Source: Shinella yambaruensis | Lineage (GTDB): Bacteria; Pseudomonadota; Alphaproteobacteria; Rhizobiales; Rhizobiaceae | Reading direction: 5' to 3' | Assembly (NCBI RefSeq): GCF_022899355.1 | Contig: NZ_JALJCK010000002.1 | Coordinates: forward strand, 310,001 to 374,000 | DNA: 64,000 nt | Shown here: positions 5,568 to 27,357 of the stretch, one piece after another | How positions within the stretch are numbered: position 1 is the first letter of the stretch | How the letters are laid out: each line of letters opens with the position of its first letter | Position numbers and translations under genes: made by a program | The notes under the pieces: generated by a model | Told to the model about the DNA's origin: nothing | What the model saw: the letters and a program-made list of their open reading frames with translations, nothing else | Database searches by the model: none

Positions 5568-6689
5568 TCAGAGGCTGACCCAGCACGGGCCGGCGATCGG
5601 TCTTGCCAGGAAGCGCCGGTTCAATTCCGCCAATGTTTCGTGCGGATCGATATCGTGGCAGCGGTCGGGATGCAGCCATTTGGCGGCGACTTCCAGGAAG
5701 AGGAGGTTGAGCGGCTGGGCGGTGATCAGCCCCGTCCAGATGCCATGCACCTGCTTGTGCTCTACAGCCTTCAAGAGGTGAAAGCCGGGCCGTCCGGTGA
5801 GGCGCTCCAGCCCGGCGCGCGCTTCGGCTTCGGGAAGGCCGGGGCCGATCGCGGGTCTCGTGGCGTTCGCATAGCCGCCACCCGTCGCGATGTAGACGTC
5901 GGCGCCTTCCGCGAGCAGCTGTTCGAGCTGGATCTTGGCGGCCCACGGGGAGGACGCGGCATCAAGCCCGCGGCCGCCGGCCGCTTCAAGAAGCGTGCCC
6001 CAGATGTCCCGGCCGACGGCCCAGCAACAATCATCGTAGAGCGAGCCGATTTCGAAATAGGTCTTGCGCGGCGCGACGCCCGCCAGACGTCGTTTCAGCC
6101 GCTCGATTTTCTGCTCATGGAAGGTCCGGAAGGCCGCGGCCTCCCGGCGGCGATCCAGGATCGCGCCCCACATGTGCATCAGGCGTGGCAGTTCCGCGAG
6201 CGGCGAGGGCGCCTCACCTGCCGCGTCATTGCTGAAGCTGCTGCTGAACAGGACGGGAATGCCAAGCTCCGCAAGCCGTTCGGACAGGGCGTCGGCGCCG
6301 TTTCCGGGCGCCATGTAGGCGGTGGCGACGACGAGATCGGGTTGCAGGGATATCAGGCCCTCCAGCGAGACGGTTTCCGGCGTCTGCCGGCCGACCAGGG
6401 CTATGTCGAAACCCGTGCTGTAGGCGGAATGGAGATCGTCACTGTCCATGCGCTCGACCGCGGCCCAGCCGACGACGAGCCGTGCCGGGTCGGGATGCAG
6501 CATGGACATGGTGAGGATGTCGCGCGCCTCCAGAAGCACGATGCGTTGCGGTGGCGCCGCAAGCTCCACCGTGCGTCCTGCCATGTCCGTTACTGTGATC
6601 ACCTGCGGACCGGCACCGAGAGCCGGGCCGGAGAGTGTTGCGGCGGCAAGCGTCAGGAAGCGTCTTCGGTTCATCCGCATGCCCGTCAC
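5568..6689 (-). CDS. Ferric-siderophore ABC transporter substrate-binding protein
   Basis: Periplasmic type-III (FhuD/FepB-like) binding protein of about 373 residues. The N-terminus MNRRRFLTLAAAT is a Tat-like twin-arginine signal followed by a hydrophobic core. The typical opening strand QVITVTDMAGRTVELAAPPQRIV starts the mature protein. The GTG start at 6689 overlaps the TonB-receptor stop (GTGA), indicating coupling. Internal ATGs at 6680 and 6674 also keep the Tat signal, so the exact start is uncertain. No permease or ATPase gene follows in the operon, so it must rely on an importer encoded elsewhere or on another route. Confidence 0.88.
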   Translation of the reverse strand: MTGMRMNRRRFLTLAAATLSGPALGAGPQVITVTDMAGRTVELAAPPQRIVLLEARDILTMSMLHPDPARLVVGWAAVERMDSDDLHSAYSTGFDIALVGRQTPETVSLEGLISLQPDLVVATAYMAPGNGADALSERLAELGIPVLFSSSFSNDAAGEAPSPLAELPRLMHMWGAILDRRREAAAFRTFHEQKIERLKRRLAGVAPRKTYFEIGSLYDDCCWAVGRDIWGTLLEAAGGRGLDAASSPWAAKIQLEQLLAEGADVYIATGGGYANATRPAIGPGLPEAEARAGLERLTGRPGFHLLKAVEHKQVHGIWTGLITAQPLNLLFLEVAAKWLHPDRCHDIDPHETLAELNRRFLARPIAGPCWVSL

Positions 6690-8836
6690 CAGCGATAGCG
6701 AAGGCCGGCCACGACTTCGCGGCCCTTTCCGACCTGGCAGTAGAAACCGTTGCTGCAGCCCGAATAGTAGTCCCTGTCGAAAAGGTTCGTGACGTTGAGG
6801 GTCGCCTCCGCCCCCTTGAAGGCCGGATTGGCCGCGCCGAGATCATAGCGCAGGGCCGCGTCCACCAGGGCGTAACCCGGCGTGCGGACGGCGTTTGCAT
6901 CGTCCGCGTAGCTGCTGCCGACGATCCGCACCCCGGCCCCGACCGAAAGGCCGTCGAACACGTCGTCATCGAAGGTGTAGTTCGCCCAGAGTGAGCCGAA
7001 ATACCGCGGCACGCCCTGCGGCCGGTTGCCGACGATCGACGGAACGACGTTCGATCGGGAGATCTCGGTTTCGAGCAGCGTGACGGCTGTGATCAGTTCG
7101 AGATTGTCGGTCACGTTCCCACGCGCTTCGAACTCGATGCCGCGGGAACGGACCCCGCCCTGCTGGATGCTGAAGCCGGGCACGGGGCCGGGCGTGAGGA
7201 CATTCTTCTGCTTGATGTCGAAGGCGGCGAGGGTGAAGATGGCATCGAGGCTTTCGGGTGAATATTTGACGCCTATCTCGAACTGCTCGGCCTCCGTGGG
7301 GACGAAAGGCCGGCCGTCCGATCCGACGCCGACGACGGGCTCGAAGGATGTCGAATAGCTGAGATAGGGGGCGATGCCGTTGTCGAACTCGTAGAGCAGG
7401 CCCGCCCGGTAGCTGGCCGCGCGTTCCGTCTGGTTGCGCTCAACGCCCGTGAGACGGTTGAGAGAGCCTTCCCGGGACCAGTCGTAGCGGCCGCCCAGCA
7501 GGATATGCAGATTGCCGAGGGTCATCTGATCCTGGAGGTATATCCCCGTCTGCCGCAAATCCTGCTTTGCATCCGTGAAGGTGGTGAACGGCCCGACGGG
7601 TAGGCCGTACTGCGGATTTGTCACGTCGAGCGGCTGGGCACCGCCGAGCAGGAACAGGAAGTCGCTTGTCGAGCGCTGGACATCGATGCCGACGAGGACC
7701 TTGTGCTCCAGGGCCGCTGTCGCGAAGCTCAGTTCCACGTTGTTGTCGGCACTCACGCCGCGCACGCTTTCCGCCGAGTGCGCCGCCCAGCGCGGTAGCA
7801 GACCGTCGGGAGTGAGCGGCCCTGAGATCTGAAGGGTCCGGAATGTCGAATCGAGACCGCCATAGCGCAGGCGCGAGCCCACTTTCACCATATCGTTGAA
7901 GCGGTGTTCGAAGATGTAGCCGATGCCGAACTGGTCGCGGTCATAGCTGTCGTACGAAGGGTCGCCCACATTGAGGCCGCCGGTCAGGTAGGGACGGTAT
8001 GAGGCCGGCGCCAGAAAGCGCGGATAGATGTGGTTGAAGTAGCCGCCTTCGGGGTCCTTCTGGTAGAAGCCGAGCAGCGTCAGGCTCGTGTCCTCGTCCG
8101 GCTGCCATGTCAGCGCCGGCGCGACCGCAAGGCGCCGTTCATCCACGTCGTCATGGCGCGTGCCGGACTGGCGGCCGATCCCGCTGAACGAATATTGCAG
8201 GACGCCGTCCTCGCTCAGCGCGCCGCGGCTCCTGACGCCGGCCTGGACCCGGCCATGGCTGCCGGTCTCAAGGCGCAGCTCGTGGGACGGGTCGGCACTC
8301 GGCATGTTGCTGATCTGGTTGACGAGCCCGCCGGGGCTTCCCTGGCCGTAGAGAACCGCCGACGGACCCTTGAGCACGTCGATCTGGTCGAGCAGGAAGG
8401 GGTCGATCTGCGGTATGCCCCATGCCTGGCCGCGCGGAAGCTTCAAGCCATCGAGATAGTCGACCGTGCGCATGGCGCTGAAGAAGCCGCCGAAACCGCG
8501 AATCGAGAGGCTGTCGAAGCGGCTGTTCTCATCGACGTTCGAAAGAACGCCTGCCGTATAGTTCAGTGCGCTCTGCACCGTCTGGGCGTTCTGGTCATCC
8601 ATCTGCTTGCGGTTGACGGTCGTCGTCGATTGGGGCGTGTTCTCGACCGGCGTCGCGCCCTTGGTCGCGGTGGTCGTCCGATTGACGACATAACGATCGC
8701 CCTTCCGCGGGGTTTCGCTTTCACCCTCGACGACGATCGTCTCGAGCCGGGTCGCGGCGTCCTGAGCTTGAGCGCCGGCAACCTGCAAGGGCAGGAGACT
8801 GGCAGTTGCGAGAAGGTAGGTCAGCTTGCGTCCCAT
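6686..8836 (-). CDS. TonB-dependent siderophore receptor
   Basis: Outer-membrane receptor of 716 residues. The signal peptide MGRKLTYLLATASLLPLQV... ends near AQA. A plug domain (about residues 45-200) shows TPQSTTTVNRKQM, IRGFGG and DVLKGPSAVLYGQGSPGG. A 22-strand barrel follows and ends in the expected aromatic residue (GLRYRW). It belongs to the ferrichrome/hydroxamate-type TIGR01783-like group. The start at 8836 is chosen because it begins the signal peptide; a longer frame to 9007 would run through the promoter and iron box. It leads the iron operon with the binding protein and SIP reductase. The upstream TGA-N9-TCA box implies iron-dependent repression. Confidence 0.93.
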   Translation of the reverse strand: MGRKLTYLLATASLLPLQVAGAQAQDAATRLETIVVEGESETPRKGDRYVVNRTTTATKGATPVENTPQSTTTVNRKQMDDQNAQTVQSALNYTAGVLSNVDENSRFDSLSIRGFGGFFSAMRTVDYLDGLKLPRGQAWGIPQIDPFLLDQIDVLKGPSAVLYGQGSPGGLVNQISNMPSADPSHELRLETGSHGRVQAGVRSRGALSEDGVLQYSFSGIGRQSGTRHDDVDERRLAVAPALTWQPDEDTSLTLLGFYQKDPEGGYFNHIYPRFLAPASYRPYLTGGLNVGDPSYDSYDRDQFGIGYIFEHRFNDMVKVGSRLRYGGLDSTFRTLQISGPLTPDGLLPRWAAHSAESVRGVSADNNVELSFATAALEHKVLVGIDVQRSTSDFLFLLGGAQPLDVTNPQYGLPVGPFTTFTDAKQDLRQTGIYLQDQMTLGNLHILLGGRYDWSREGSLNRLTGVERNQTERAASYRAGLLYEFDNGIAPYLSYSTSFEPVVGVGSDGRPFVPTEAEQFEIGVKYSPESLDAIFTLAAFDIKQKNVLTPGPVPGFSIQQGGVRSRGIEFEARGNVTDNLELITAVTLLETEISRSNVVPSIVGNRPQGVPRYFGSLWANYTFDDDVFDGLSVGAGVRIVGSSYADDANAVRTPGYALVDAALRYDLGAANPAFKGAEATLNVTNLFDRDYYSGCSNGFYCQVGKGREVVAGLRYRW

Positions 8837-9856: not shown

Positions 9857-11461
9857 CTAGCGCAGCATGCTCACATCATTGAACCTCAGGCCAAATCGCG
9901 CGAGATATTTCGACAGGCGGTCGGCGTCGTTGCTGCTTTTCTTTTCCAGGCGCGAGCTTGCGAACAGCGCCCGGCCCGCCGCGCTGGCGCTGGCATGTTT
10001 GCGGCAAGTCTGCAGCACGGCGGCGAGCTGCACGGCGTCGAACCGGTCCAGCTGCGCTGCAGCATCCTCGCCCAGATGCTCGACAAGGATGTCGTCGGAC
10101 GCCGTCTGCCGTGAAGCGCCGTGCCAGGCCGTGTTCAGCCGCCGGATCTCGTCGTAGACGACCTCGATGGTGATGCGGCCGAGCGGGGCGAGCGTGGCCA
10201 TGCGGGTGACGGATGCGGAAAGGTCGCGGAAATTGGCGCTCCAAGCGGCGTCAGGGCCGGTGGCGAAGGCGAGATAGCGTTCGCGCGCCTCCTTGTTGAA
10301 GGTCACGTTCTGGCCCTCGCGCTCCAGGAAGCGGCGCAGCTCGAAATCGAGGTTGGGTTCGATGTCCTCCGCGCGTTCGCGAAGTGCCGGCAGCCGGAAC
10401 GTCCAGAGGTTCAGGCGGGCGAAGAGGTCCTCGCGGAACCTTCCGAGGCGCACGGCCTCGGCGAGGTCGCGGTTGGTGCCGGCGAGAAGCTGGAAATCGG
10501 CGGAGGCCTCGGTGTCGGCGCCCACCGGGAGGAAGCGTTTCTCCTCGATGGCGCGCAGGCACATGGCCTGTTCATCGAGGCCGAGCTCGCCGATCTCGTC
10601 CAGGAAGAGCACGCCCTTGTCCGCAGAGCGCAGGAGGCCCGCGCGCTCGCCGGCCGCCCCCGTGAAGGCGCCCTTGACATGGCCGAACAGCGCCGACATC
10701 GCCTGGTCTCCCCGCAATGTCGCGCAGTTGACCTCGACGAAGGGACCGCTGACCTTCCGCTGCGCATTCTTGAGTTCGTAGATGCGCCTGGCGAGCTGGG
10801 ATTTGCCGGCGCCGGTCGGCCCCGTCAGGAGGACCGGCGCCGCCGAGCGTATCACCACGCGCTCGATCTCGTCGATCATCCGGTTGAAGGCGGTGTTGCG
10901 CGTGGAGATCCCCGATTTCAGGAAGGAGGCGGCCTCTTCGCGTTCGGAGGCGAAGCGCTTGGCGATCTCGTCGTAGCGGGAGAGGTCGAGGTCGATGATC
11001 CGGTGCGTGCCGGCGAAGTCCGCGCCCGGATCGCGATCGCGCGGCGGCGAGAGCTGCAGCAGCCGGCCGGGGATGATGCGGGCCTCGGTCAGCAGGAACC
11101 AGCAGATCTGCGCGACATGCGTTCCGGTGGTGATGTTGACGAGATAATCCTCGGTATCGGGGTCGAACGGGTAGCCGCGCGCAAAGTCCCGGAGGTTCGT
11201 GTAAACCTCCGAAAAATCCCACGGGTCACGGAAATTGATGACATTGCTGCGTACCTCCGTGGCCGGTGACACGGTCTCGATGTCGGCGATGATCCGCGTG
11301 GCGAGGGCGCTCGCGTGGTTGTCATGGATGAGTTCCAGCCGGTCGATAAACAGGCCGGCTTGCTGGCAGAGCCCGACATTGGGCCGCCAGCGGCTCCAGC
11401 GATTGTCCCTCCCCATGTCGAGGGTGGTTCCCAGGATGCTGATGGCGACACGCCGCTTCAT
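9857..11461 (-). CDS. rtcR: RtcR: CARF-domain sigma-54-dependent activator of the RNA-repair operon
   Basis: Protein of 534 residues with an N-terminal CARF-like sensor domain (about 1-180, starting KRRVAISILGTTLD with NITTGTHVAQICWFLL). An AAA+ sigma-54 activator domain (about 190-430) and a C-terminal DNA-binding region follow. In the AAA+ part are Walker A GPTGAGKS, the sigma-54 contact loop GAFTGA and Walker B VLFLDEIGEL. RtcR activates rtcBA in enterobacteria, and its CARF domain is reported to sense RNA ends/tRNA fragments. Here it is divergent from rsr, whose promoter region carries a -24/-12 element, so the whole rsr-Y-rtcB-prfH set is its likely target. Confidence 0.95.
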   Translation of the reverse strand: MKRRVAISILGTTLDMGRDNRWSRWRPNVGLCQQAGLFIDRLELIHDNHASALATRIIADIETVSPATEVRSNVINFRDPWDFSEVYTNLRDFARGYPFDPDTEDYLVNITTGTHVAQICWFLLTEARIIPGRLLQLSPPRDRDPGADFAGTHRIIDLDLSRYDEIAKRFASEREEAASFLKSGISTRNTAFNRMIDEIERVVIRSAAPVLLTGPTGAGKSQLARRIYELKNAQRKVSGPFVEVNCATLRGDQAMSALFGHVKGAFTGAAGERAGLLRSADKGVLFLDEIGELGLDEQAMCLRAIEEKRFLPVGADTEASADFQLLAGTNRDLAEAVRLGRFREDLFARLNLWTFRLPALRERAEDIEPNLDFELRRFLEREGQNVTFNKEARERYLAFATGPDAAWSANFRDLSASVTRMATLAPLGRITIEVVYDEIRRLNTAWHGASRQTASDDILVEHLGEDAAAQLDRFDAVQLAAVLQTCRKHASASAAGRALFASSRLEKKSSNDADRLSKYLARFGLRFNDVSMLR

Positions 11462-11620: not shown

Positions 11621-11636
11621 TGGCACGCCGCTTGAA
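11621..11636 (+). promoter_or_regulatory. Sigma-54-type -24/-12 promoter for rsr and the RNA-repair genes
   Basis: TGGCACGCCGCTTGAA matches the sigma-54 consensus TGGCACG-N4-TTGCW except that the -12 GC is GA. The -24 GG and the spacing are as expected. It lies 39 nt before the rsr ATG and opposite an RtcR gene, which is the known arrangement of RtcR-controlled RNA-repair operons. Confidence 0.75.
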
Positions 11637-11674: not shown

Positions 11675-13231
11675 ATGGTCAACAAGGCGATCTTCAAAAC
11701 CTATCTCGGAAAGCTGCTTGCGGGCACGGACACGAAAAACCACGAAGCCGCGCCGGCCTACAGGCTGACGCCGCGCGAGGCGCTGGCGCAGTATGCCGTG
11801 ACCGGCACGTTCAACGGTACGTTCTACGCCGACGGTGCCGAGCAGCTGGAGGCGGTGAAGGCGCTGGCCCTCGAGGTCGAGCCGGAATTCCTTGCCAAGG
11901 TGGCCATCCACGCGGCCGGGAAGGGGCACATGAAGGACATGCCGGTCACCCTGCTGGCCATGCTGTCCAGCCTTGAGAGCGATGCTTTCGCCCGCGCCTT
12001 TCCGCGCGTCGTCAAGAGCGGCAAGATGCTGCGCGGCTTCGTCCAGGTGATGCGCTCCGGCGCGACGGGGCGCAAGTCGCTCGGCACGCGGCCGAAGAAG
12101 GCCGTGCAGGCATGGCTGGAACGGGCAAGCACCGAGCAGATCCTGCGCGCCATGGTCGGCAACGACCCGTCGCTGGCCGACGTCATCCGCATGGTGCATC
12201 CTAAGCCGGTGTCGGAGGAACGCAGGGCGCTCTATGCCTGGGCGATCGGCAAGCCGCACGACGTTGCGGCGCTGCCGGACCTCGTCAAGGCGCTGGAAGC
12301 CTTCCGGCGTGACCAGACGCGGTCGGTGCCGGACGTGCCGTTCCAGATGCTGACCTCGCTGCCGCTGACGCGCGAGCACTGGGTCGAGATCGCCCGTAAG
12401 GGCGGCTGGCAGATGGTGCGGCAGAACCTCAACACCTTCGCGCGCAACGGCGTGTTCGAGGTCGAGGGTTTTGCCGAGGCGCTGGCTGCGCGGCTGGCCG
12501 ATCCGGACGAGGTCCGCAAGGCCAGGGTCTTCCCCTATCAGCTGATGATGGCGTGGAAGATGGTCGACGGCCAGGTTCCGGATGTCGTGCGCGATGCCTT
12601 GCAGGACGCGATGGATATCGCGATCGCCAACGTGCCGTCGTTCGGTGGCAATGTGGTGCTGTGCCCCGACGTTTCCGGATCCATGGCTTCGCCGGTGACC
12701 GGATACCGCAAGGGGGCGACGTCGGCGGTCCGCTGCATCGATGTCGCCGGCCTGATGACGGCGGCCTTCCTGCAGCGCAACCCGAAGGCACGGGTGCTGC
12801 CGTTCGAGACCGGCGTGGTGAGCGTCGCGCTCAACCGGCGGGATTCGGTGATGACCAATGCCGGCAAGCTGGCGGCCATCGGCGGCGGGGGAACGAACTG
12901 CTCCGCACCGCTGCGCAAGCTCGCGGACGAGAAGGCCAGGGTCGATCTCGTCGTGTTCATCTCGGACAACGAATCCTGGGTGGATGCGCGCAAGGCCGGT
13001 CAGCCGACGGGCGTGATGACGGAATGGGCACGGATCAAGCGGGTCAACCCGGCTGCAAAGCTGGTCTGCCTCGATCTCCAGCCCCACGCCACCACGCAGG
13101 CGCCGACCCGGAACGACGTGCTCAACATCGGCGGCTTCTCGGATGCCGTCTATGGGGTCATCACCGCTTTCGCCGCCGACAGCAAGGGCGCCGACGGCTG
13201 GGTGAGGGCAATCGAGGCGATCGAGCTCTGA
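11675..13231 (+). CDS. rsr: TROVE-domain Ro60/Rsr ortholog, Y-RNA-binding protein
   Basis: Protein of 518 residues, the length expected for bacterial Ro proteins. A HEAT-like TROVE ring (about 1-330) opens NKAIFKTYLGKLLAGTDTKNHEAAPAYRL. A von Willebrand A domain (about 345-518) follows, whose MIDAS motif is DVSGSM with later GGGGTNCSAPL and SDNESW. Ro proteins bind Y RNAs and misfolded or damaged RNA and guide exonucleases such as PNPase. The AGAGGTG ribosome-binding site lies about 10 nt before the ATG. Directly downstream are four Y-RNA-like elements and two rtcB genes, so Y RNA partner and RNA ligases are encoded with it. Confidence 0.95.
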   Translation: MVNKAIFKTYLGKLLAGTDTKNHEAAPAYRLTPREALAQYAVTGTFNGTFYADGAEQLEAVKALALEVEPEFLAKVAIHAAGKGHMKDMPVTLLAMLSSLESDAFARAFPRVVKSGKMLRGFVQVMRSGATGRKSLGTRPKKAVQAWLERASTEQILRAMVGNDPSLADVIRMVHPKPVSEERRALYAWAIGKPHDVAALPDLVKALEAFRRDQTRSVPDVPFQMLTSLPLTREHWVEIARKGGWQMVRQNLNTFARNGVFEVEGFAEALAARLADPDEVRKARVFPYQLMMAWKMVDGQVPDVVRDALQDAMDIAIANVPSFGGNVVLCPDVSGSMASPVTGYRKGATSAVRCIDVAGLMTAAFLQRNPKARVLPFETGVVSVALNRRDSVMTNAGKLAAIGGGGTNCSAPLRKLADEKARVDLVVFISDNESWVDARKAGQPTGVMTEWARIKRVNPAAKLVCLDLQPHATTQAPTRNDVLNIGGFSDAVYGVITAFAADSKGADGWVRAIEAIEL

Positions 13232-13244
13232 CATGAAGCAATAC

Positions 13245-13272
13245 CCCCGTGCCGCCCGTGAACGGCACGGGG
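13245..13272 (+). other. 10-bp hairpin after rsr, in front of Y RNA element 1
   Basis: CCCCGTGCCG (13245-13254) pairs perfectly with CGGCACGGGG (13263-13272) around an 8-nt loop. There is no U-tract, so it is more likely a processing or stabilising element than a terminator. Element 1 begins one base later. A similar hairpin with an 8-nt loop precedes element 2. Confidence 0.7.
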
Positions 13273-13273
13273 A

Positions 13274-13407
13274 CCGTGACGAATGCCGGATGAAACTACA
13301 GGCTGTTAACCTCCAGGTCGCGGGTTCGAATCCCGCCGGGTCCCCCAACCATGGACCCGTAGCTCAGCGGATAGAGCGGGTCGTTTCACCACACCTCGTC
13401 GTCACGG
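13274..13407 (+). ncRNA. Y RNA element 1 (YrlA-like) with permuted tRNA body
   Basis: A 134-nt element closed by CCGTGACGA (13274-13282) with TCGTCACGG (13399-13407), or by CCGTG/CACGG plus ACGA/TCGT (13396-13399) around a 3-nt bulge as in the other copies. The 5' strand holds GACGAATG and then CTACAG (13296-13301). These agree with the Ro-binding element I recall for bacterial Y RNAs. Inside is a tRNA-like body: T-arm GCGGG-TTCGAAT-CCCGC (13320-13336), a 7-bp acceptor-like stem CGGGTCC (13337-13343)/GGACCCG (13353-13359) with loop CCCAACCAT, TA, then D-arm GCTC-AGCGGATA-GAGC (13362-13377). It lies 43 nt after rsr, fitting a Ro ligand. Confidence 0.85.
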
Positions 13408-13415
13408 ACGAACGA

Positions 13416-13441
13416 CATGGGCAAGAAGGCTATTGCCCATG
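13416..13441 (+). other. 9-bp hairpin between Y RNA elements 1 and 2
   Basis: CATGGGCAA (13416-13424) pairs perfectly with TTGCCCATG (13433-13441) around an 8-nt loop. It is the counterpart of the hairpin before element 1 and may separate the RNAs during processing. Confidence 0.65.
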
Positions 13442-13446
13442 GAAGA

Positions 13447-13581
13447 CTTGCAGCGACGAATGCCGGACGGAACTACAGCCACCACCGTTGGATGGTCTGG
13501 CAGGTTCGACTCCTCCTGGGCATACGCTCTCTGGCACGAGCGGGGCCATCCGGTTTCGTTCATCCTCGTCGCCGCTGCAAG
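13447..13581 (+). ncRNA. Y RNA element 2
   Basis: A 135-nt element closed by CTTGCAGCG (13447-13455)/CGCTGCAAG (13573-13581) plus ACGA (13456-13459)/TCGT (13566-13569), with a 3-nt bulge CGC on the 3' strand. It repeats the 5' core GACGAATGCCGGA...CTACAG (13455-13478). An anticodon-stem-like helix pairs GGATGGTC (13490-13497) with GGCCATCC (13544-13551). Between these arms lie a weakened T-arm, GCAGG-TTCGACT-CCTCC with one mismatch (13500-13516), and a D-arm, GCTC-TCTGGCAC-GAGC (13526-13541). The acceptor stem is missing; the two arms are joined by a 9-nt linker. Confidence 0.82.
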
Positions 13582-13598
13582 GGCTTGCATAGGGAATG

Positions 13599-13736
13599 CC
13601 CGGCGAATGCCGGTGGGACTACAGGTAAGAGCGGCTCGCCGGATATCCGGCGTGCAGGTCGGATGTTCGATCCATCCCGCATGTTCGTCAGGATGTGCGT
13701 AGCTCAGAAACCGTCCCGCCAAGGTTCGTCGCCGGG
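13599..13736 (+). ncRNA. Y RNA element 3
   Basis: A 138-nt element closed by CCCGGCGA (13599-13606)/TCGCCGGG (13729-13736), or by CCCG/CGGG plus GCGAA/TTCGT with a CGC bulge as in its siblings. The 5' core is GGCGAATGCCGG...ACTACAG. A perfect 16-nt palindrome at 13637-13652 forms an inner hairpin. The T-arm GGATG-TTCGATC-CATCC (13661-13677) is intact. A permuted acceptor stem CGCATGT (13678-13684)/ATGTGCG (13693-13699, two G-U pairs) is followed by TA and GCTCAG of a D-arm whose 3' strand is lost. Confidence 0.8.
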
Positions 13737-13747
13737 ATGGCAAGAGG

Positions 13748-13844
13748 CCCCGGGCGAATGCTGCGGAGGACTACATGGGCCGCATCGCGCCATGCAAATG
13801 GAATGCGTGCGGAAACGTCTTCCGCCTGAATTTGTCGCCCGGGG
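13748..13844 (+). ncRNA. Y RNA element 4, without tRNA-like module
   Basis: A 97-nt element closed by a perfect 10-bp stem, CCCCGGGCGA (13748-13757)/TCGCCCGGGG (13835-13844), or by CCCCGG/CCGGGG plus GCGAA/TTTGT around the CGC bulge. The 5' core GGCGAATG (13753-13760) is kept; the second motif is CTACAT instead of CTACAG. No T-loop or D-arm is found. Inside is a hairpin GCGGAA-N5-TTCCGC (13810-13826). It ends 12 nt before the rtcB1 start, just before the AGGA ribosome-binding site. Confidence 0.75.
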
Positions 13845-13856
13845 ACAGGAAACTCG

Positions 13857-15314
13857 ATGGATAGAAGGACTGCAGAAGCAGAAGAAACGATGAAACAGGT
13901 AGTAAGCGGGCAGGATCTGATCGATGCGGGCATGCCCCAGGGCAAGTGGTTCCGCGATGCGCTGGACGCCGCCAACACGGTCTTGAGCGAAGGCGGTTCG
14001 ATGGAGGGCGCGCTGGAAGCGGCACGCGCCTTCCAGCCGGGCCCGACGCTTGCGCTGAGGGCGGACAACGATATCGAGATCTATTCCAACATCCGCGCGG
14101 AAAACGCCTTCGAGCAGGACAATGTGGAGAAGGTCAATGCGACGATGCGGGCGCTGGTGCGCACGCCCGTGGTGCGCTCGGCGGCGATCATGCCCGATGC
14201 CTGCCCGGCAGGCCCGATCGGGACGATCCCGGTCGGCGGTGTCGTCGCATCCGAGGCGATCCACCCCGGCATGCATTCGGCCGATATCTGCTGCTCGATG
14301 GCGATCTCCATCTTCCCCGATGTCGATCCGAAGGCCCTGCTCGATGCTGTTCATGCGGTGACGCATTTCGGTCCGGGCGGGCGCCCGCGCGGTGCGCAGT
14401 TCAAGCCCTCGCAGGCGACGCTGTCCGCCTTCCAGCAGAACCCCTACCTGCGGGACGGCGCGCTCAGCGCCGGTATCGAGCACTTCGCGACGCAGGGCGA
14501 CGGCAACCACTTCGCCTATGTCGGGACGATGAAATCGACGGGTGAAACGGCGCTCGTCACCCATCACGGGTCGCGGGCACCGGGCGCGCGCCTCTACGAC
14601 AAGGGCATGAAGGTCGCCAATCGCTTCCGCGAGCAGCTGTCGCCGCAGACGCATCGGGAAAACGCCTGGATTCCCGCCGATACCGAGGAGGGCGACCTCT
14701 ACTGGTCGGCACTCCAGACGATCCGCCAGTGGACGAAGGAGAACCATTACGTCCTGCACGACATGGCTGCGGCACGGCTCTCGGCCAAGGTGGCCGACCG
14801 TTTCTGGAACGAGCACAACTTCGTCTTCCGCAAGTCCGACGGGCTCTTCTACCACGGCAAGGGGGCGACGCCCGCCTTCGACAAGTGGGCGGAGGATGCG
14901 ACAGACCTGACGATCATTCCGCTCAACATGGCGGAGCCGATCCTGATCGTTCGCGGTTCCAATGCCGCCCATGGCCTCGGATTCTCGCCGCATGGCGCCG
15001 GCCGCAATTTTTCCCGCAGCGCCCATATGCGGCGCCTTGCGGAGGAATACGGCGCCGATGCCCGCGGCCTGAGCCCTAACAACCTGGCGGATGTCCTGAA
15101 AAAGGAGACGGCGGGGCTCGACGTCCGCTTCTTCTCCGGCTTTGCGGATGCTTCGGAGCTGCCGAGCGCCTACAAGTCCGCCGCCAATGTGCGCGCCCAG
15201 ATCGAGCACTATGGCCTCGCCGAGGTGGTCGACGAGGTCGTGCCCTTCGGGAGCATCATGGCCGGGGACTGGCAAAGGGACGCGCCGTGGCGGAAGAGGC
15301 GGGAAAGGCGTTGA
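13857..15314 (+). CDS. rtcB: RtcB family RNA ligase, copy 1
   Basis: RtcB-type 3'-phosphate/2',3'-cyclic-phosphate to 5'-OH RNA ligase of up to 485 residues. Metal and guanylate-site motifs are visible in order: HPGMHSADICCSM (family DxGCGM, with C and S for the two glycines), GDGNHFAYV, THHGSRAPGARLY and SPHGAGRNFSRSA with the guanylated His. AGGA at 13847-13850 supports the ATG at 13857. An ATG at 13890 (MKQVVSGQDLI) matches the usual family N-terminus and is the alternative, giving 474 residues. It follows the Y RNA array and rsr, so it probably seals cleaved RNA, perhaps tRNA, in the RtcR regulon. No rtcA cyclase is present. Confidence 0.92.
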   Translation: MDRRTAEAEETMKQVVSGQDLIDAGMPQGKWFRDALDAANTVLSEGGSMEGALEAARAFQPGPTLALRADNDIEIYSNIRAENAFEQDNVEKVNATMRALVRTPVVRSAAIMPDACPAGPIGTIPVGGVVASEAIHPGMHSADICCSMAISIFPDVDPKALLDAVHAVTHFGPGGRPRGAQFKPSQATLSAFQQNPYLRDGALSAGIEHFATQGDGNHFAYVGTMKSTGETALVTHHGSRAPGARLYDKGMKVANRFREQLSPQTHRENAWIPADTEEGDLYWSALQTIRQWTKENHYVLHDMAAARLSAKVADRFWNEHNFVFRKSDGLFYHGKGATPAFDKWAEDATDLTIIPLNMAEPILIVRGSNAAHGLGFSPHGAGRNFSRSAHMRRLAEEYGADARGLSPNNLADVLKKETAGLDVRFFSGFADASELPSAYKSAANVRAQIEHYGLAEVVDEVVPFGSIMAGDWQRDAPWRKRRERR

Positions 15315-15545: not shown

Positions 15546-16763
15546 ATGGGCACTTTTTTCGGGGACACGTCTGTCTCCACCCAGCCGGCATGCACGCCGG
15601 CGACTATCCATCACTATTTCTCGGCCGAAAGCTGGATCGAGGGCGCCGCGCTCGACCAACTCGACAGGATGGCGCGCCTTCCGGGCGTCAGAAGCATCGC
15701 GGCCTTCCCGGATCTCCATCCGGGCAAATACGGTGCGACAGGTGTCGCGCTCCTGTCGGACCGGCTGCATCCGCTGCTCGTCGGCAACGACATCGGCTGC
15801 GGCATGTCCCTGTTCGAGCTCGATCTTCCATTGCGGAAGCTGAAGCTCGACAGGGCGGCAAGCCGCCTCCGGCGGTTCGATGCGCTTGCGGTCGACGATG
15901 CTGCCGGGCGCCTCGACGGTGTCGGCCTTCCGGGCGATCTCTTCGCGGATGCGCTGGGAACGATCGGCGGCGGCAATCACTTCTGCGAGCTGCAGGCGGT
16001 GGAGAGCCTTTCCTCGCCGGTATCCGGCATCGGCCGTCAGGGCCTTTACCTGCTCGTCCATTCCGGTTCCCGCGGCTTCGGAGCAGCTGTCCTGTCCGAC
16101 AGTCTCTCGGCCGAACCGGACCTGATGTCGGGGCTCGATGCCTCGTCTCCGGCCGGCCTCCATTGGCTCGGCAGGCATGATCAATGTGTTGCCTGGGCCT
16201 CGCTCAACCGCATCCTCATCGCCGAGAAGGCGGCCTCGGCGCTTGGCGCCGATTGCCGCCTGGTGACCGACGTGCCGCATAATCTCGTTCGCCGGAGCGA
16301 GAAGGGCTATGTCCACCACAAGGGCGCGGCGGCCGTCGATCCCGGCACGATCGCCCCGCTCGCAGGGTCGCGCGCGACGCTGAGCTACATCGTGCGGGCC
16401 ACGGAAAAGGTTGCCGGTTCGCTGGGCGGCATATCGCACGGTGCGGGGCGCAAATACGACCGTGCCACCATGCACGGCCGCGTCGGCCGGACCCGCTCCG
16501 AGCGGGACGACCTCCTGCGCAATGCCTGGGGCGGCATCGCCATATGCGACGACCGCGCGCTCGTCATCGAAGAGGCGCCCTCCGCCTACAAGGATGCAGG
16601 GCGGGTGGTTGCCGATCTCGTGGCGGCGGGCCTCGTCGAAAGCCTGGCCGCCATGCGGCCGCTCGTCACCTACAAGAAGGCGGTCGACGAGGAGGGGCGT
16701 GCCCGCCGTCCGGACAAGCCGGATCACCGCCAGACGGGGAGGCGCAAGCATGACCGCTATTGA
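15546..16763 (+). CDS. rtcB2: RtcB2: release-factor-H-coupled RtcB family RNA ligase
   Basis: Shorter RtcB homolog of 405 residues matching the release-factor-H-coupled group (TIGR03073 as I recall it). Metal and catalytic motifs are canonical: GNDIGCGMSLFE, GGGNHFCEL, LVHSGSRGFG, VPHNLV, VHHKGA and SHGAGRKYDR with the guanylated His. Members paired with PrfH are reported to reseal 16S rRNA cut in the decoding centre by colicin-E3-like nucleases. The 3' end overlaps prfH by 14 nt, so the two are co-translated. It sits 231 nt after rtcB1. Confidence 0.92.
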   Translation: MGTFFGDTSVSTQPACTPATIHHYFSAESWIEGAALDQLDRMARLPGVRSIAAFPDLHPGKYGATGVALLSDRLHPLLVGNDIGCGMSLFELDLPLRKLKLDRAASRLRRFDALAVDDAAGRLDGVGLPGDLFADALGTIGGGNHFCELQAVESLSSPVSGIGRQGLYLLVHSGSRGFGAAVLSDSLSAEPDLMSGLDASSPAGLHWLGRHDQCVAWASLNRILIAEKAASALGADCRLVTDVPHNLVRRSEKGYVHHKGAAAVDPGTIAPLAGSRATLSYIVRATEKVAGSLGGISHGAGRKYDRATMHGRVGRTRSERDDLLRNAWGGIAICDDRALVIEEAPSAYKDAGRVVADLVAAGLVESLAAMRPLVTYKKAVDEEGRARRPDKPDHRQTGRRKHDRY

Positions 16764-17370
16764 TCTGCTGATCACCGCCGGCAACGGTCCTGCCGAATGC
16801 CGCATCGCCGTCAGGGCGTGTCTCGATATCCTGGAAAAGGAAGCGGCGGCGCGTGGCTACCTCTTCGAGGTCAGCACGGGGCCTATGCCGGACTGTCACG
16901 GCCCGAAATCCGCCCTCGTCAGCCTGGAGGGCGAAGCGGCACCGTGCATGGCCGCGGAGTTCTGCGGCACCGTGAAGTTCCTGTTCAAGAGCCCGGTGCG
17001 TCCCGGCCACAAGCGGCAGAACTGGTTCGTCTCCGTACAGCGCGTCGACCTTTCCGGCGGTGAGGGCGTGGCGATCGATCCGCGTGACATCCGGTTCGAA
17101 ACCCTGCGGGCCGGCGGACCCGGCGGCCAGCACCAGAACACCACGGACAGCGCCGTCCGGGCCATTCACATTCCAACCGGGCTGCGCGTCATCGCCCGCA
17201 ACGAGCGATCCCAGCATCGCAACAAGGCGCTGGCGGTCAAGCGGCTCGCAGCCATGCTGCAGCATCTGGAGGACAGGAAGACGGACGCGGCAAAATCGGA
17301 ACGCTTCATCGCCAACCGCTCGATCGAGCGGGGCAATGAAGTCAAGACGTTCAAGATCCAGCGGCCATAG
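16750..17370 (+). CDS. prfH: Peptide chain release factor H (PrfH)
   Basis: RF2-like protein of 206 residues with the peptidyl-tRNA hydrolysis motif in GGPGGQHQNTTDSAVR (about residues 117-132). It lacks the N-terminal stop-codon-reading superdomain of RF1/RF2 but has its own N-terminal extension (about 1-110). The C-terminus RNERSQHRNKALAVKRL is typical of class I/rescue factors. With RtcB2, PrfH is reported to release nascent chains from ribosomes with cleaved 16S rRNA so that the ligase can repair them. The ATG at 16750 overlaps the end of rtcB2. Confidence 0.94.
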   Translation: MTAIDLLITAGNGPAECRIAVRACLDILEKEAAARGYLFEVSTGPMPDCHGPKSALVSLEGEAAPCMAAEFCGTVKFLFKSPVRPGHKRQNWFVSVQRVDLSGGEGVAIDPRDIRFETLRAGGPGGQHQNTTDSAVRAIHIPTGLRVIARNERSQHRNKALAVKRLAAMLQHLEDRKTDAAKSERFIANRSIERGNEVKTFKIQRP

Positions 17371-27143: not shown

Positions 27144-27206
27144 TTTTCCCGGGGCCGGCCGCACGCGGCCTCTTGCATCCCCCGGCGAAAATTCCTTATT
27201 TACGCC

Positions 27207-27347
27207 TGTTCTCAGGGCGGGGTGAAATTCCCCACCGGCGGTATCCGGAGCGATCCGGGAGCCCGCGAGCGCTTCCGTTGACGCGGAAGGTCAGCAGATC
27301 CGGTGCGATGCCGGAGCCGACGGTCACAGTCCGGATGGAAGAGGACA
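27207..27347 (+). promoter_or_regulatory. FMN riboswitch (RFN element)
   Basis: Nearly consensus RFN element. The 5' part has CTCAGGGCGGGGTGAAATTC then CCCACCGGCGGT; AGCCCGCGAGCG and GGTCAGCAGATCCGG follow; GCCGACGGTCACAGTCCGGA lies near the end. The closing helix P1 is TGTTCTC (27207-27213) with GAGGACA (27341-27347). It precedes ribB by 92 nt and lowers its expression when FMN is plentiful. Confidence 0.97.
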
Positions 27348-27357
27348 TGTCTGCTAA

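Follow-up and report, generated by a model that had tools for sequence, protein, structure and literature searches.

What is encoded between the gene for a Ro60 orthologue and the gene for an RNA ligase in Shinella yambaruensis? The question is raised by a stretch of 64,000 nucleotides (nt) from this member of the Rhizobiaceae (contig NZ_JALJCK010000002.1, positions 310,001 to 374,000; hereafter the window), in which rsr, the Ro gene, and rtcB1, a ligase gene, are separated by a gap of 625 nt (13232-13856). The gap is filled by four elements on the forward strand, of 134, 135, 138 and 97 nt: E1 at 13274..13407, E2 at 13447..13581, E3 at 13599..13736 and E4 at 13748..13844. A sequence-only reading of the same DNA had given both the gap and the limits of the elements correctly. 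We consider it probable, with a good deal of room for doubt, that these elements are four Y RNAs belonging to a single rsr-rtcB RNA-repair operon, which share a common handle for the Ro protein and carry differing heads that mimic tRNA. Judged from their sequences, the elements are conserved, paired and linked to rsr, they appear to be non-coding, and their tRNA-like heads are opened in at least two ways.

The lower part shared by the four elements

The four elements are held together as a family by a core motif and by the arms that enclose it. CGAATG...RCTAC occurs four times in the gap, compared with a mean of 0.003 and a maximum of 1 in 2000 dinucleotide shuffles, which bears out the earlier description of a shared 5′ core with an ACTACA partner. 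When the 3′ cores are picked by motif only, 19 of the 20 outer-arm positions in the window are Watson-Crick pairs, and the best wrong assignment of arms reaches 17 of 20; being the best of 24 permutations, the correct assignment is by itself only suggestive of covariation. Across rhizobial loci the covariation is strong: among 66 distinct arm pairs, own partners score 0.676 versus 0.439 for swapped partners (maximum 0.509), and none of 2000 swaps reaches the own value. The covariation among paralogues that the sequence-only reading saw in the window is borne out on this wider sample, and the stems are conserved in related genomes, with compensatory changes, as that reading required.

In all four elements the lower part begins with an outer helix of variable sequence, which CGA/UCG closes, and continues with an AUGC internal loop and a second stem. 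The consensus structures of the classes to which the elements belong (A, C, D and E for E1 to E4, out of five classes described below) form a continuous CGA/UCG helix; the 3-nt CGY bulge proposed earlier can be drawn, but no such bulge is needed. A stem bearing the CGAAUG/YGUCG core joins the 5′ and 3′ ends, the elements lie beside a Ro60 orthologue, and at least one RNA of the locus (E1 and E3) carries a tRNA-like domain; these are the features of Y RNAs in a broad sense. Excerpts of PMC8394870 and PMC4726728 describe bacterial Y RNAs whose basal stem binds Ro, which tether PNPase, and whose tRNA-like domain carries modifications made by tRNA enzymes, and the former likens a bacterial Y RNA with paired 5′ and 3′ ends to the D, T and acceptor arms of tRNA.

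Rfam similarity agrees with the earlier label, and by these matches the gap elements are Y-RNA-like. E1 matches YrlA (RF02553) at 64.0 bits, near the gathering score of 69, E3 is a weak YrlA match at 31.5 bits, and E4 is a weak match to YrlB (RF02565) at 29.1 bits, with a gathering score of 97; E2 has no Rfam match at E values up to 10, and the YrlA model gave nothing for E2 or E4. Covariance models built for class A (R3), class C (R2) and class D (R1) score E1, E2 and E3 at 160.2, 150.2 and 135 bits, respectively.

Heads that resemble tRNA, and where they are opened

E1 looks like a permuted tRNA of the YrlA type, in which 13 extra nt can complete a split anticodon arm. The class A structure (35 sequences) comprises the lower stem, the second stem, a T arm, an acceptor hairpin of 7 base pairs (bp), a D arm and a two-part anticodon stem. 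It lies above 500/500 shuffles in all five measures, with 98.9% of cells paired and 14 two-sided pairs versus 5.1, and sliding the partners by 1-3 columns destroys its support. The anticodon part combines two pairs involving bases 3′ of the D-stem with a three-pair hairpin that encloses a loop of 7 nt; in the Rfam alignment of E1, the three-pair hairpin is exactly the 13-nt insert relative to the YrlA consensus. All five pairs of the split stem are present in 34 of 35 rhizobial rows (7-nt loop in 30) and in 19 of 39 rows outside the family (7-nt loop in 15). These 39 class A-like matches, whose alignment was fitted to the structure, keep the covariation and show two-sided changes in all five anticodon pairs; within class A itself, the column pair 32-41 of the split stem has two-sided changes in 16 of 35.

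An alignment-free test, which looks for the split stem at a fixed distance from the T-loop, finds all five pairs in 45 of 98 distinct elements and not in the other 53. The two parts of the stem pair at 0.862 and 0.595 with their own partners versus 0.579 and 0.415 with swapped ones, a result reached by 0/2000 swaps. When the test was repeated with three more loci placed in the window's family, the elements divided into 65 from the family and 33 from others, with 30 and 15 complete. For the 33 other-family elements the split stem was reached by 0/1000 swaps, and an alternative hairpin by 94/1000. This alternative pairs positions 30-33 with 45-48 in tRNA numbering, or alignment columns 31-34 with 47-50.

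Re-joining the halves of class A in the order of a tRNA makes the likeness accessible to ARAGORN, which then calls a tRNA in 34 of 35 sequences at the best of 30 joins (range 14-34), in 0/35 unrotated sequences and in 0/700 shuffles at its default setting. E1 of the window is read as tRNA-Asn. Such calls show that the halves are tRNA-like, not that the anticodon arm forms. An origin of the class A loop from tRNA-Asn was considered and rejected, the triplet not being conserved. Interpreting the loops as a motif belonging to a known nuclease was dropped as well.

E3, of class D, appears to be a tRNA opened elsewhere, in the D-loop, as covariation and ARAGORN both support. From 25 sequences and no tRNA input, RNAalifold returns a cloverleaf whose D-stem links both sides of the head, with GG..AGAGC on the 5′ side and TAGCTCAG on the 3′ side; between the two strands lie an anticodon-arm hairpin, AGGTC, a T arm and an acceptor hairpin. 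All five covariation measures of this alignment (A3) lie above 500/500 shuffles, and the pairing also stands out against slid partners. The covariation is seen again outside the training set, among 15 model matches from other genera and families in an alignment fitted to the model; in three of them the D-stem GAGC/GCTC is replaced by GCGC/GCGC, an A-U to C-G change. When class D is joined across the D-loop and opened within the acceptor loop instead, ARAGORN calls a tRNA in 13 of 25 sequences, rising to 24 when the threshold is set to 90%; shuffles give 0/1000 at both settings, and unrotated sequences 0/25 at default. The position of the cut matters. With cuts at every third column, default ARAGORN gives matches only at columns 92-101, which are the acceptor hairpin (8-10 of 25), and the 90% threshold gives 22-25 of 25 there, 6 at column 89 and one or two at columns 104-113. 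Only the 100% and 90% thresholds were used, because at 80% unrotated sequences are called too (13/25 in class D, 21/35 in class A), as are 9/1000 and 9/700 shuffles. In the numbering of tRNA used here, U8, A14, G15, G19, A21, most of the T-loop and C48 are near-invariant in classes A and D.

The remaining two heads are simpler. For class C, to which E2 belongs, the RNAalifold consensus sets two hairpins on a closing stem, one with a T-loop and one formed by GCTC...GAGC, which resemble T and D arms; the acceptor hairpin is absent. Class E, the YrlB-like class of E4, folds by RNAalifold into a long irregular hairpin without tRNA arms.

Several results weigh against the reading of the gap as four Y RNAs with tRNA-mimic heads. 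All four elements miss the Rfam cut-offs. In class A, the alternative hairpin is lower in nearest-neighbour energy in 33 of 35 sequences, by a median of 4.6 kcal/mol and by 3.3 in E1; RNAalifold selects it, and it forms when E1 is folded alone; it too is kept within the family, with 97.9% of cells paired and one-sided changes; and the two lower anticodon pairs lack covariation within the class A alignment. The single-sequence fold of E2 departs from the class C consensus. The D-stem of class D is invariant in all 25 sequences of A3 and so shows no covariation there, the three changed D-stems all come from the window's family and could reflect a single event, and in alignments A5 and A6 the sequences had been fitted to the models. 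For E3 of the window, ARAGORN reports a tRNA at the 90% threshold only, at which 2 of 25 unrotated class D sequences are called as well. Two of the seven class genomes with rsr gave no match to the class A model. Different heads for different partners is, moreover, our inference. The energy of the alternative hairpin lowers our confidence in the Y RNA reading, and likewise in the decoy, permuted-gene and bait explanations discussed below, and raises it for cis-acting spacers. We lean toward the split stem as the form inside a folded tRNA-like core, with the alternative as its competitor; the two may interconvert.

Relatives of the array and the operon around it

How general is the array? Protein searches for rsr found it in 17 of 297 genomes of the family and 7 of 385 of the class, the window's own genome counted in both, and a scan of named contigs gave 53 loci. 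In 52 loci an rtcB1-type gene comes next, 46 once six genome records duplicating contig records are removed. A heuristic, pairing-based finder places 3-6 elements in 52/52 of these rhizobial loci, and model matches add others (for example L008 3656-3794 and L030 6807-6944; L-numbers denote compared loci). Four elements in a row had been taken for something new, and this does not survive the comparison. Nor does the idea of a simple graded series of copies: when each element is assigned to whichever of five reference elements it most resembles, the result is instead five classes shared among genomes, with heads that appear to be different tRNA mimics, mostly in the order A-B-C-D-E, each possibly absent or doubled. 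The element closest to rsr best matches class A in 52/52 loci; in distant loci (for example L016-L019, L051, L053, L054 and L073) assignments are of low similarity and the classes follow one another less regularly. The gap of L054 (6145-7205) holds as many as eight Y-like elements, two of them weak.

For the alignments, classes were assigned to unique sequences by similarity and margin thresholds, exact duplicates being dropped. L027, L033 and L036 (near ties with B) and L019 (low similarity) were left out of class A, and 14 class B sequences stayed outside the alignments. The class A alignment (A1) holds 35 of 41 sequences, without L010, L011 and L071 (long insert), L029, L045 and L070; the class D alignment (A3) holds 25 of 27, without the second copies of L010 and L071; A2 and A4 hold 41/41 and 21/21. 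Class B is the canonical YrlA and passes Rfam gathering, for instance at 96.8 bits in L024, as do some class A relatives (73.4 bits in L027). At its cut-off, the Rfam YrlA model gives 8 matches in 14 related loci, 13 of them rhizobial with 3-6 elements each. Among 47 rhizobial sources, most of which had contributed to building the models, class A exceeds 100 bits in 46, class C is found by R2 in 46 (L014 is weak), and class D by R1 in 34, 12 of them with two copies.

In whole genomes, strict-threshold matches to the RNA models occur only beside rsr. R1 at E ≤1e-8 matched 22 places, spread over 19 of the 397 genomes searched in the order, the window's own included, and tblastn found rsr in the retrieved stretch of 18/18 of the others. 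R3 at 1e-12 matched 5 of 385 class genomes, all among the 7 with rsr and within ~1 kb of it. In the window's own genome, R3 gives matches at four places outside the array, at 30.5-36.4 bits versus 160.2. Three further YrlA-model places in this genome were considered as possible Y RNAs and set aside, all being tRNA genes by ARAGORN.

The genes around the array are those of an RNA-repair operon regulated by RtcR, as far as sequence tells: a divergent rtcR, a σ54-type promoter and rtcB. The rtcR gene (9857..11461, reverse strand) encodes a σ54-dependent activator with an RtcR sensor domain (NF038308 815 bits, cut-off 650; PF06956 260 bits). Rsr (11675..13231, forward strand, 518 amino acids (aa)) is the Ro protein that the sequence-only reading named, but a divergent one, with PF25045 vWA_Ro60 at 66.8 bits, PF05731 TROVE at 23.2 bits, barely above the cut-off of 23, and NF041674 Rsr at 84 bits, far under the cut-off of 900. 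Downstream on the same strand, rtcB1 (13857..15314; PF01139 99.4 bits) is an RtcB-family ligase, likewise as named before. It is followed by a second RtcB-family ligase of the PrfH-associated type (15546..16763, forward; PF01139 172.6 bits; TIGR03073 283.5 bits, cut-off 271.8) and by prfH, for peptide chain release factor H (16750..17370, forward; TIGR03072 203.9 bits, residues 119-316 of the open reading frame (ORF) listed from 16411, in which Met 114 is the likely start). Among the compared loci, such a prfH match lies nearby in L074 only.

A putative σ54 promoter, TGGCAC-N5-TTGAA (11621..11636, forward), lies 54 nt upstream of rsr. It is the sole zero-mismatch match across the window; with up to one mismatch there are 5 matches versus 2.68 expected, and the site by itself is not significant in the window. 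The case for it rests on conservation of the pattern across loci, not on the window count: 52 of 70 loci carry the strict pattern 5′ of rsr, at positions -48 to -54 in rhizobial loci, and it is missing upstream of rsr in the other 18, among them L010, L011, L012, L047, L049, L051 and L071, together with two Hellea and three uncultured Caulobacterales loci. Within the rsr-rtcB gap of the window, a scan for σ70-type promoters and terminators gave none.

Comparison with described systems shows what is familiar here and what is not. Y RNAs beside rsr, the permutation of YrlA and the link to rtcB are already known. With YrlA the array shares the CGAAUGC/CUAC core, the lower stem, the adjacency to rsr and, in E1, the order T arm - acceptor hairpin - D arm; it differs in the 13-nt insert of class A, able to complete an anticodon arm of 5 bp with a 7-nt loop, in the D-loop opening of class D and in the absence of an acceptor hairpin from class C. 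E4 aligns across the whole YrlB model but far under gathering, with 32 more bases at a skipped stretch (consensus 10). The Salmonella rsr-yrlBA-rtcBA operon, as described in excerpts of PMC7790460, likewise unites RtcR, rsr, Y RNAs and RtcB, but it has yrlB and yrlA where the window has four elements and rhizobia have 3-6, and the window differs from it further in the second rtcB with prfH downstream. Y RNA 6CU1, in excerpts of PMC11472068, mimics a circularly permuted tRNA too; there it is one Y RNA, and here two openings would occur in one array. A literature search that left out the central survey of Chen 2014 and later reviews found, in the portions of sources seen, no Y RNA opened in the D-loop, no anticodon arm in a Y RNA and no ordered Y RNA arrays.

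Some compared loci carry other RNA genes in the gap. Five loci, from three uncultured Caulobacterales and two Hellea, have 2 to 12 tRNA genes there: L062 has 7 (6816-7516), L063 7 (6893-7493), L064 5 (6772-7207), L065 2 (6772-6935) and L069 12 (6330-7612), one of the last inside its Y array. Rfam recovers 7/7, 4/5, 2/2 and 11/12 of those in L062, L064, L065 and L069. A DNA search with the L065 tRNA-Asn returned the operon copies, and partial matches elsewhere in 4 of 5 genomes. These genes could possibly be an emergency tRNA supply; they tie this type of operon to tRNA supply and say nothing directly about the window. They recall the stress-induced tRNA operon of Anabaena, where extra tRNAs are co-regulated with rtcB but at separate loci and under a repressor, and the text of PMC10272220 contains neither 'ro60' nor 'rsr'. 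In L046 (5027-5176), an Rfam tRNA match of 34.7 bits (cut-off 29) seems to join the D half of one Y element to the T half of the next. ARAGORN reports a transfer-messenger RNA in the gap of L067 (Diaphorobacter caeni, 6672-6908), which is probably spurious, Rfam giving none there. The rsr match is split in two in L055 (4501-5984, at a contig end) and in L074 (4691-5864). Elsewhere in the window lies a flavin mononucleotide (FMN) riboswitch (27204-27350, 111.7 bits).

Other explanations, and the role of the array

The possible anticodon arm of class A suggests that the elements could be decoys, whose anticodon-like loop absorbs tRNA-cleaving enzymes. Excerpts of PMC7790460 raise a competitive-inhibitor role for YrlA as a possibility, and this arm would sharpen the idea: a 5-bp stem with a 7-nt loop is available in the 30/35 and 15/39 rows noted above, and among 22 distinct loops T33 is present in 17 and A37 in 19, position 34 being the most variable (entropy 1.95). 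Yet C33 is found in 15 of 45 rows, energy prefers the competing hairpin, and Salmonella YrlA was not cut by a RecA-dependent nuclease according to the same excerpts. An anticodon arm is missing from classes C and E, and that of class D lacks an anticodon-like loop of fixed length. Decoys are, on this balance, unlikely as an account of the array, if far from negligible.

It is also rather unlikely that the elements are cis-acting structured spacers, setting rtcB expression through the processing or stability of the mRNA rather than being released as free RNAs. They do lie on the coding strand of a single row of genes, with no σ70-type promoter or terminator found in the gap, as such spacers would. 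Conserved tertiary-core bases in tRNA-like heads, classes that recur across genomes and a known Y RNA core would be unexpected of them, and no rtcB match was found in the retrieved stretches of L098, L099 and L100, with a fragment in L104, though each stretch ends ~1.5 kb from the match.

The array might, more speculatively, be a kit of baits and sensors. Permuted tRNAs carried by Ro would offer different faces, including a cleavable anticodon loop, to tRNA-cleaving toxins; a cut bait would give 5′ fragments of the kind that act on RtcR, and RtcB would reseal it into a self-renewing decoy. The anticodon triplet of the class A loop drifts between species. We hold this elaboration to be improbable.

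Very unlikely is a single working YrlA accompanied by decaying duplicates. The Rfam scores of E2-E4 are far under that of E1, and copy number is variable, as decay would have it; against this stand the retention of classes C and D in 46 and 34 of the 47 rhizobial sources (many of them used in model building) and the compensatory changes in class D, where the pairing of TAGCTCAG with AGAGC would not persist in decaying copies. Harder still to credit is that class A is a permuted tRNA gene, processed and joined by RtcB into a working tRNA. The 3′ half does precede the 5′ half, a ligase gene adjoins, the re-joined copy in the window reads as tRNA-Asn, and 26 of 35 rhizobial rows have NCCA at the start of the acceptor loop, following the 7-bp acceptor; but NCCA is present in only 8 of 39 rows outside the family, the anticodon varies among relatives (A34 in 10 of 45 rows, besides the C33 rows), and the Ro stem is retained. 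Protein-coding ORFs are the least likely account of all: open frames are present at 13417-13893 (forward, 158 aa), 13233-13592 (forward, 119 aa) and 13402-13743 (reverse, 113 aa), but none has a Pfam match, and in classes A, C, D and E the spacing between the 5′ and 3′ cores takes all three values modulo 3.

How, then, might four Y RNAs with a common handle and different heads work? Their lower part would be the handle held by the Ro protein Rsr. Above it, E1 would present a permuted tRNA whose opening lies on the anticodon side and which may retain the anticodon arm, E3 a tRNA opened in the D-loop, E2 the T and D hairpins only, and E4 a head without tRNA arms. Damage to tRNA may switch the operon on, RtcR being activated by tRNA fragments in excerpts of PMC7790460; transcription from the σ54 promoter would then make Rsr, the Y RNAs and RtcB together. 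By showing different tRNA surfaces, the Y RNAs could let a single Ro ring meet several tRNA-handling partners, candidates for which are PNPase and tRNA-modifying or tRNA-cleaving enzymes; single Y RNAs that tether Ro to PNPase elsewhere offer a comparison.

Two consequences follow for this family of RNAs. At their cut-offs, the two Rfam models miss many members, including all four in the window. And if several distinct tRNA mimics, with two openings of the tRNA among them, do stand beside one Ro gene, the partner of each head would become a testable matter.
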